From a bacterium (GTDB lineage Bacteria; Myxococcota_A; UBA9160; UBA6930), in assembly GCA_024228115.1 (NCBI GenBank), contig JAAETT010000249.1, positions 1-64,000 on the forward strand: a stretch of 64,000 nucleotides of DNA, given 5' to 3'. Under the pieces are notes generated by a model. That model had not been told where the DNA came from. It saw nothing but the letters and a program-made list of their open reading frames with translations, and did not search any database. The translations under genes were made by a program, and so were the position numbers. Below, piece by piece: positions 136 through 1,745 of this stretch (within the stretch, counting starts at the first letter, position 1; each line of letters begins with the position of its first letter).

Positions 136-594
136 CTAGAGAGTAGCCAGGACTTCCAACGCCTCGCGCGCGTGTTGGGCGATGTCGAGTTCGGCCTCGA
201 TCACCTTGCGAACGATGCCCTCGCGATCGATGACCACCGTGGCGCGCTTGTTCGGCAACCAACCACCGGCCCGCGCGAGCCCGTAGGCCTTCGCGATCGC
301 ACCCTTCGGATCGCTGAGCAGCGGGTAGGGAAGCTCCAGGGTTTCGGCAAAGGACGCGTGCCGCTCCGCCGAATCGTTGCTGACGCCGACGACCTCGGCG
401 CCGAGCGCAGTGAATTCCGGGTAGTGCCCGCGGAAATCACGCGCCTCGAGGGTTCAACCCGGGGTGTAGTCTTTCATGTAGAAGAACAACACCAGATGTC
501 GACTCCCCTGGAAATCCTCCAGGGAGAGGCTCCCACCGGTCGAGGTGCGGCCCTCGAACGCAGGCGCTCGCGCTCCTTCGCTCACGGCAGCCAT
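136..594 (-). CDS. bcp: Selenocysteine-containing peroxiredoxin (BCP/PrxQ type), UGA read through as Sec
   Basis: This is a thioredoxin-fold peroxidase that would reduce hydroperoxides in the cytoplasm. The frame from ATG 594 gives MAAVSEGARAPAFEG, then FFYMKDYTPG followed by TGA at 456-454, and continues without a break as TLEARDFRGHY to TAG at 138-136. The whole is 152 residues, the normal BCP length. The TGA falls exactly at the peroxidatic cysteine of the family motif (TPGCT), so residue 47 is read as selenocysteine, giving TPGUT. Sequence after the TGA keeps the family pattern: GAEVVGVSNDS, LLSDPKG and a final DREGIVRKVI strand. The PrxQ resolving cysteine five residues on is an arginine here, so another thiol must resolve the selenenic acid. 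The gene starts two bases after the methyltransferase stop, so the two are probably co-transcribed. Terminating at UGA would leave a useless 46-residue peptide. Confidence 0.88.
429..443 (-). promoter_or_regulatory. Candidate bacterial SECIS hairpin downstream of the Sec UGA
   Basis: Ten bases after the UGA, the minus strand reads CGCG-TGATTTC-CGCG, a four-base-pair GC stem with a seven-base loop whose second base is G. Bacterial SECIS elements are short hairpins about 11 bases past the UGA with a G in the first two loop positions, recognised by SelB. The spacing, size and loop G all fit. The stem is short and GC-rich sequence makes chance hairpins common, so the support is mainly positional. 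Confidence 0.5.
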
Positions 595-596
595 GG

Positions 597-1214
597 CTAG
601 CTTGCCTCCCGTGTGCGCTCCCAGCGGTAGACCCGCATGGGGGGCACGTTGCGCAATTCGGTCTTGACGCGAGCGCGGCCAAAGACCCGGCGCCCGAGTT
701 CGTGAACCTTGTCGCGAACCTGGTAGGCCACGAATCGGCCCCCGGGCACCAGGCTCGCGTGAACTTCGTTGACGATCGCGGCACCGAGGGCTTCGGGCAT
801 GGTCGAGAAGGGAATGCCGGAGATGACGACGTCTGCCGCCTCGAAGCCGTACTTGGCCAGGGCGCCGCGCACATCCGCAGCGCTGCCTTCGTGGACGATC
901 AAACGCGGATCCGGCATGTGGCGCTTCAGCACCTTCACGAAATCCGGATTGATCTCGATCGCGATCAGGGTCGCTTCCTGCGGAAGCGCCTTCAGCAACG
1001 CGCGGGTGGAGCCACCGGTTCCGGGCCCGAGTTCTACGACGACGCGGGCGTCGGCGAGCTCCGCAGCTCCGACCACGCGCCGCTCGAGAAAGCGCGAACT
1101 CGGGATGACCGAGCCCACCTGCTTGGGGCGGTCGAGGAAGCCTCGGAAGAAATCGACAGGGCGGTCCTGACGAGCAGATTTCAATCGCTGCAGCACGGGG
1201 GGGCTCCTGGTCAT
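597..1214 (-). CDS. Class I SAM-dependent methyltransferase, phospholipid N-methyltransferase (PmtA)-like
   Basis: A 205-residue Rossmann methyltransferase. The N-terminal FFRGFLDRPKQVGSVIPSS is typical of PmtA-like and rRNA-dimethylase-like enzymes, which often carry a FL..P..VG...PSS lead. SAM motif I is VVELGPGTGGSTRALL (about residues 56-71), the acidic motif II strand is LIAIEIN, and SGIPFSTMP stands at the motif IV position, where the family has S-G-hydrophobic-P. The likely substrate is phosphatidylethanolamine or a related lipid, but this is inferred from family resemblance only. I chose the ATG at 1214 because the longer frame (from 1307) adds a low-complexity Arg/Pro/Gly lead. The gene lies two bases upstream of the peroxiredoxin and diverges from the ABA4-like gene with a 93-base gap. 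Confidence 0.72.
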   Translation of the reverse strand: MTRSPPVLQRLKSARQDRPVDFFRGFLDRPKQVGSVIPSSRFLERRVVGAAELADARVVVELGPGTGGSTRALLKALPQEATLIAIEINPDFVKVLKRHMPDPRLIVHEGSAADVRGALAKYGFEAADVVISGIPFSTMPEALGAAIVNEVHASLVPGGRFVAYQVRDKVHELGRRVFGRARVKTELRNVPPMRVYRWERTREAS

Positions 1215-1307
1215 TCGGCCGTGGCATCCTAGCAGCGCTCGCGGAGGCCGTCGGCGGGGGTGAATCCCAGCGCGTCGGCACCGCCCAGATGGGCTACGAA
1301 GGGGCAC

Positions 1308-1745
1308 ATGTCACCCGATCTCCTCTTCCTCCTCTGCAACAACGGCGTCCTGCCCGCCTGGCTGCTTCTCGTCTTCGCCCCGGGCTGGGCCTGGACGACC
1401 CGGTTGATCCACGCCGCATGGATCCCGGGCCTGCTCGCCATCGCCTACGGCTTCGCGATCAGCCAGGGCCTGGCCGAGGCGCCGGAAGGCGGCGGATTCG
1501 GGAGCCTCGCCGGCGTGATGGCCCTCTTCACGCAGCCATGGGCCGCCCTCGGCGGCTGGATCCACTACCTGGCATTCGATCTCTTCGTGGGAGCCTGGGA
1601 GGTGCGCGACGCCCGGCGACGTGGCATCGCTCACCTGTGGGTGGTTCCCTGCCTGGTCCTCACCCTGATGCTCGGGCCCCTGGGCCTGCTCGCCTACCTC
1701 GCCCTGCGCTTCGGACTCACCCGAGAACTCACGCTGGCCGAGTAG
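1308..1745 (+). CDS. ABA4-like (DUF4281) integral membrane protein
   Basis: A 145-residue protein with about four membrane segments: LLFLLCNNGVLPAWLLLVFA at the start, a second near residues 35-55, then WIHYLAFDLFVGAWEVRDA and a final PCLVLTLMLGPLGLLAYLAL segment. The pattern of a G-W-I-HY-AFDLF-G-WE-RDA-RRGI-H core and a GP-GLL-YL end is diagnostic of the ABA4-like family. The plant member is needed for neoxanthin formation; bacterial members have no assigned reaction. An ATG at 1260 is possible, but the start at 1308 follows a GAAGGGG ribosome site and begins right before the first membrane helix. It converges on smc. Confidence 0.82.
   Translation: MSPDLLFLLCNNGVLPAWLLLVFAPGWAWTTRLIHAAWIPGLLAIAYGFAISQGLAEAPEGGGFGSLAGVMALFTQPWAALGGWIHYLAFDLFVGAWEVRDARRRGIAHLWVVPCLVLTLMLGPLGLLAYLALRFGLTRELTLAE

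Follow-up and report, generated by a model that had tools for sequence, protein, structure and literature searches.

The window analysed here, a stretch of 64,000 nucleotides from the draft genome of a bacterium for which only environmental DNA is available, holds near its start a peroxiredoxin (Prx) frame interrupted by one TGA, and a first-pass annotation had claimed that this codon sits exactly at the peroxidatic Cys position, that conserved sequence continues on both sides of it and that it encodes selenocysteine (Sec). The locus thus raises two questions: whether the TGA is an error, a genuine stop or a Sec codon and, if it is read as Sec, how an enzyme of this composition may work. The features concerned are listed below (G, C and L numbers are our handles for genomes, contigs and loci).

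136..594, minus strand: predicted Sec-containing PrxQ/BCP-type peroxiredoxin gene (152 residues plus a TAG stop; AhpC-TSA match of 127 bits)
454..456, minus strand: in-frame TGA, codon 47, at the peroxidatic position, predicted to be read as selenocysteine (TGA there in 9/9 orthologues)
407..444, minus strand: putative bacterial SECIS hairpin (from folding, recoding and pairing tests)
605..610, minus strand: Shine-Dalgarno-like GGGAGG, ten bases 5' of the Prx ATG
597..1307, minus strand: upstream gene for a SAM-dependent methyltransferase, with its stop codon two bases 5' of the Prx start
1260-1742, plus strand: ABA4-like membrane protein (PF14108 match of 139 bits), encoded on the opposite strand and flanked by smc and the methyltransferase gene

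The reading frame and its conserved TGA

Without its stop, the Prx coding part spans 139-594 on the minus strand, with an ATG at 594-592 and a TAG at 138-136, and its frame is broken only once, by the TGA at codon 47 (456-454; DYTPG-U-TLEARDF), no other in-frame stop being present. The PF00578 match covers residues 7-130 and hence both sides of the TGA (127 bits for a cut-off of 26), as the annotation had it, and the part 3' of the TGA keeps the composition of coding DNA, with a GC content of 0.72/0.45/0.82 by codon position. Searches of 79 genomes of the same order returned matches at E <= 0.001 in all of them. The nine best places, corresponding to the window and eight others, each contain one single TGA, which is located at the peroxidatic codon, bearing out the position claimed for it; the eight other proteins show 51-93% identity. 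A pattern scan of named genomes, covering close relatives only, also found a 93% identical gene in the metagenome assembly "Deltaproteobacteria bacterium isolate Meg19_02_Bin_150", which we did not count separately since its surroundings resemble those in G064. When the searches were widened to 90 genomes of the class (E <= 1e-25) and to 377 from the phylum (E <= 1e-27, with at most 10 candidates scored per genome), no further genome had, among its best candidates, a TGA-bearing match of at least 51% identity: the next best matches were Cys forms, and some weaker matches carried a TGA (41-45%, including G320).

Aligned to peroxiredoxin families, the 152-residue protein belongs to AhpC/TSA, PrxQ/BCP type. 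The two best NCBIfam models are both PrxQ-type, but neither reaches its cut-off (83 bits where 260 are needed, and 79 where 140 are needed). Among proteins of solved structure, Bcp1 of Sulfolobus (3drn) and an alkyl hydroperoxide reductase of Burkholderia (5enu) come closest in sequence. In three alignments, the TGA falls on the Cys of 5enu and 5epf (TPGCT) and on a Ser of 3drn, which we take to be an active-site mutant. A structure model built from the nine sequences, with Cys substituted for Sec, reached a mean pLDDT of 87.9 and placed residue 47 near the start of a helix (45-56); compared with the PDB, it gave 706 matches at E <= 0.001, the best of which were peroxiredoxins, with a TM score of 0.91 to Bcp1 (3drn). 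The motif (D/A)xTxGC, with a Gly before the peroxidatic residue, is the one described for PrxQ/BCP in a passage of PMC5302317, and it is present here as DYTPGU, Sec replacing Cys.

Sec machinery and the RNA downstream of the codon

The annotation had predicted that the organism would have selA, selB, selC and selD, and a genome devoid of them would have spoken against Sec; the machinery turned out to be in place. In the source genome (6.41 Mb in 700 contigs, a draft assembly estimated to be 97% complete), we found, all above cut-off, a tRNA-Sec gene (71.3 bits, with ARAGORN in agreement and an anticodon tca), selA (509 bits), selB (285.5 bits) and selD (353.3 bits; L018, G000:C360), the latter with its own in-frame TGA in TCGUAAK, which corresponds to the Sec form of this protein. 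Among 14 control genomes, the cut-offs were exceeded in 5 for tRNA-Sec, 1 for selA, 2 for selB and 2 for selD, so that the tRNA-Sec cut-off is not strict when taken by itself. With E <= 1e-10 as the limit, tRNA-Sec was detected in 63 of the 79 genomes of the order and, among the 14 controls, only in E. coli and M. jannaschii, showing that Sec decoding is common in the order. Seven of the nine genomes that carry the Prx gene have a tRNA-Sec; it was not found in the two others, G016 and G063, which are 84% and 82% complete. Two genomes have two tRNA-Sec genes each, G003 (C140, 1.2 kb apart and with equal scores) and G032 (C29 and C192), and the source genome contains a second selD-like place (C99, L019; 249.8 bits), whose frame of 750 codons holds no TGA and may represent a fusion.

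A reassignment of TGA to Trp or Cys throughout the genome was considered and rejected: since smc ends at a TGA in the same window, seven residues past the end of its Pfam match, the genetic code is not reassigned, and the genome has a tRNA-Sec. A composition scan of the window for other genes interrupted by UGA returned 12 places, one of them the smc stop, and only the Prx gene was convincing by eye; a stricter scan of the window yielded nothing and missed the Prx gene as well.

The annotation had also described a short hairpin with a loop G after the UGA, and such a structure is present. Its outer stem starts 9 nt 3' of the UGA and its apical loop (427-422) has 6 nt with the G first, 26 nt after the UGA. 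For the 48 nt that follow the UGA, the folding energy is -19.1 kcal/mol (z -2.52), a value that 5 of 200 dinucleotide shuffles attained. We also compared each gene with 300 synonymous recodings that leave the protein unchanged, using the 48 rows of our alignment without L077 and L084, which lack a matching motif: the mean z was -2.02 for the nine genes of the window group, which encode no Cys (see below), -0.27 for 28 Cys homologues and +0.50 for nine Sec genes of another lineage, these values not being independent tests since the rows are related. For the nine genes, p ranged from 0.003 to 0.26 and was at most 0.02 in five of them, the window's own value being 0.083. Given its mean z of +0.50, the SECIS of the other lineage may be weaker, lie elsewhere or be of another type.

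In the alignment of the nine genes, 92.3% of the cells of the hairpin are paired, compared to 27-59% in slid controls, and RNAalifold alone draws nearly the same hairpin. Changes on both sides affect 3 of the 13 pairs (4 cells), and 15 of 500 shuffles reach three, while slides of -1, +1 and +2 give 2, 2 and 3; L031 contributes three of these four cells, and the fourth is a U-G in L029, located among three broken pairs.

According to a passage of a 2026 review (PMC13188914), a bacterial SECIS has a loop of 3-9 nt with a G in the first two positions, located 16-37 nt from the UGA, and an MFE of at most -7.5 kcal/mol. The window hairpin agrees with each of these rules (a loop of 6 nt that starts with G, a distance of 26 nt and -16.4 kcal/mol), but the rules do not separate Sec from Cys genes: as coded, with -7.5 kcal/mol, they accept 16 of the 28 Cys rows, 6/9 of the other Sec lineage and 6/9 Cys-free rows (L026 at a different place), three of the latter failing. 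Agreement with them thus proves little, as Cys genes pass as well, and we abandoned the rule-based scan as a discriminator in favor of the synonymous-recoding test, which was more useful, most Cys genes passing the scan too. Rfam showed no known SECIS family in the window at gathering cut-off, and nothing relevant appeared in ten loci at E <= 1. Separately, a stretch lying over the end of the Prx gene in L026 (1940-2004) matched RF01021, a model of an animal microRNA, on either strand, with 43 and 38 bits for a cut-off of 90; it is probably a palindrome and perhaps a terminator.

These observations bear directly on what the TGA is. A single wrong base in a draft assembly of 700 contigs would be enough to turn a TGC or TGT at 456-454 into a TGA, in which case the enzyme would simply be a Cys PrxQ, but this codon is also TGA in eight other genomes, whose proteins are as little as 51% identical, the source genome contains the Sec machinery and the RNA 3' of the TGA exceeds its recodings in stability, so that we consider an error of sequencing or assembly to have a negligible chance of being the explanation. 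It is also very improbable, if not quite to the same degree, that the UGA is a real stop and that only the first 46 residues are made, from a pseudogene or a truncated gene: TGA does serve as a normal stop elsewhere in the window, but most of the length of the aligned proteins lies 3' of the TGA, with 51-93% identity in the eight relatives and 34 invariant columns listed after residue 47 in the alignment of the nine orthologues, and that part has kept its coding composition. A reading of the internal UGA as selenocysteine is strongly supported by comparison, and its frame, the conserved TGA, the Sec machinery genes, the RNA signal and the predicted Prx fold confirm the gene as a selenoprotein gene as far as sequence can tell.

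A Cys-free protein and a second Sec lineage

Between the ends chosen by our script, which for L030 include no usual start codon near the expected start, none of the nine orthologues contains a single Cys, leaving Sec as the sole residue of that kind. The absence of the resolving Cys of PrxQ, as annotated, was confirmed: position +5, where this Cys usually stands, is an Arg in eight of the nine orthologues, including the window protein, and a Lys in the ninth. In the Cys group, 25 of 30 rows have a Cys at +5, as do 8/9 rows of the other Sec lineage; a resolving Cys at this position is not universal within the PrxQ/BCP subfamily. The signature Pro of the PxxxTxxC motif, seven residues before the peroxidatic one, is replaced by Met in the window protein and in G064 and by Val in G016, and it is kept in 45 of the 48 rows (six of the orthologues and all 39 other rows). 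Thr44, which is the motif Thr three residues before the peroxidatic one, Gly46, Thr48, Glu50 and Arg117 are invariant in all nine.

The second Sec-PrxQ lineage belongs to the same order (L036-L040, L042, L048, L049 and L052) and has TPGUT or TAGUT motifs with the Sec in the same place; unlike the Cys-free group, it has kept the +5 Cys in eight of its nine members. A midpoint-rooted tree of the 48 rows puts the 18 Sec rows together on one side, with a single Cys row, L041, among them (branch support 84/85). Eight of the nine Cys-free rows group together at 97/89, with L031 just outside, weakly supported (82/84), and the nine form one clade in 12% of 200 bootstrap trees. Since all Sec rows fall on one side of the tree, Cys may have changed to Sec once, with the two lineages splitting afterwards.

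L041 (G061) is a Cys gene (TSGCTAESC) inside the second Sec lineage and its genome has a tRNA-Sec; its place in the tree suggests a reversion from Sec to Cys. Another PrxQ homologue, L077 (G233:C42:6832-7284), carries Phe in place of the peroxidatic residue (TPGFT), lacks Cys altogether and is likely a non-catalytic peroxiredoxin. In the source genome itself, 4 of 14 AhpC/TSA places hold an in-frame TGA: apart from the window gene, these are a second AhpC/TSA gene with the TGA at the peroxidatic place (L055, G000:C646:6602-6994; TPTUSEEV) and places on C57 (L060, DWUPYTKA) and C675 (L057).

A possible one-Sec cycle and its relation to known peroxiredoxins

We infer that Sec is actually inserted, that the protein works as a peroxidase and what might reduce it, and we put the probability of the following reading as a whole at roughly 0.88. 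SelB, tRNA-Sec and the hairpin located just downstream would insert Sec at the UGA, as residue 47; its selenolate would attack hydrogen peroxide or an organic hydroperoxide, yielding a selenenic acid that glutathione, thioredoxin or glutaredoxin would then reduce from outside through a mixed selenosulfide. Such an outside thiol would be needed since the chain lacks a resolving Cys as well as any other Cys, and the cycle would be as in glutathione peroxidase or in a 1-Cys peroxiredoxin. The reduction of the peroxide by a selenolate and the subsequent reduction of the selenenic acid by a thiol are described, in part, in a passage of PMC8533274. As the genome encodes both a glutathione synthetase (355.8 bits) and thioredoxins (six places of the thioredoxin family, of which three exceed 80 bits), either donor is possible. 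A one-Sec cycle with an outside thiol is the mechanism that we favor on these grounds.

The UGA may also encode Sec in a protein that mainly acts as a peroxide sensor or in selenium handling, rather than as a bulk peroxidase. A changed role could be indicated by the missing resolving Cys, the lack of any further Cys and, for three of the nine proteins, the replaced signature Pro, but Thr44, Arg117 and the Gly before the Sec are invariant in all nine. The conserved Arg has a role in peroxiredoxins, and a role of the active-site Thr is stated in a passage of PMC8533274. We regard a sensor or selenium-handling protein as unlikely and keep to the peroxidase. More tentatively, and at a little less than even odds, this group may represent a strictly Cys-free PrxQ lineage with Sec as its only redox residue, in one order of environmental Deltaproteobacteria-like bacteria: an easily reduced selenenic acid would have made the resolving Cys dispensable, after which the motif Pro would have drifted, turning a two-Cys thioredoxin peroxidase into a one-Sec enzyme resembling glutathione peroxidase.

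Compared to the Cys forms of PrxQ/BCP (Sulfolobus Bcp1, 3drn; Mycobacterium BcpB, 5epf; Xanthomonas PrxQ), the window protein has the same predicted fold and the (D/A)xTxGC motif, but it has Sec for the peroxidatic Cys, no resolving Cys and a Met for the signature Pro. The need for an outside thiol would be shared with 1-Cys peroxiredoxins (Prx6 type, AhpE) and with Sec glutathione peroxidases, which are different subfamilies. For AhpE, the motif PxAF(T/S)xxC given in a passage of PMC5302317 is absent from the window protein.

With TxxU peroxiredoxins (COG1225/Bcp), the window protein shares the superfamily, the Sec position, the TxxU motif and a bacterial Sec machinery. TxxU peroxiredoxin is a listed selenoprotein family in passages of PMC1088965, PMC1794560 and PMC13188914, and it also appears in a 2022 review (PMC9312934). 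Passages of these and other sources report 43 such sequences in Sargasso Sea data (PMC1088965), 12 known in 2006 with five Cys-to-Sec changes inferred, several Deltaproteobacteria among the carriers and three copies in Anaeromyxobacter (PMC1794560), an annotated member in Desulfococcus (PMC5109826) and a Sec-Prx of Eubacterium acidaminophilum (Soehling 2001, as cited in PMC8533274). The first-pass view that the gene adds a member to an existing group, and no new family, thus stands as far as membership of the established TxxU family is concerned, but a group with 43 Sargasso sequences is not very rare. The NCBIfam PrxU model gives the window protein 47.3 of the 270 bits needed, and so the protein belongs to another branch than PrxU.

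The enzyme type is therefore known, and the lack of every Cys is its unusual part. In the literature passages that we covered, including those on the resolving Cys, PrxU and 1-Cys enzymes, we recognized no description of a Cys-free Sec-Prx; the part of PMC10778597 that we covered holds nothing bearing on one, and the resolving Cys of TxxU peroxiredoxins is not discussed in the passages seen. The locus adds, from a little-studied group of bacteria, a well-supported selenoprotein of the sort that is prone to being split or cut short in routine annotation, and the occurrence of a Cys-free lineage beside a Sec lineage with a resolving Cys offers a natural experiment on what selenium contributes to peroxiredoxin chemistry.

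The methyltransferase and Prx genes are probably co-transcribed. Inspection of the other orthologue loci by eye revealed no shared neighbor beyond an open reading frame with a similar peptide that also precedes the Prx gene in G064, G066 and perhaps G063, and no functional partner emerges from them. In G066, an SRP54/FtsY-like gene lies downstream of the Prx gene.
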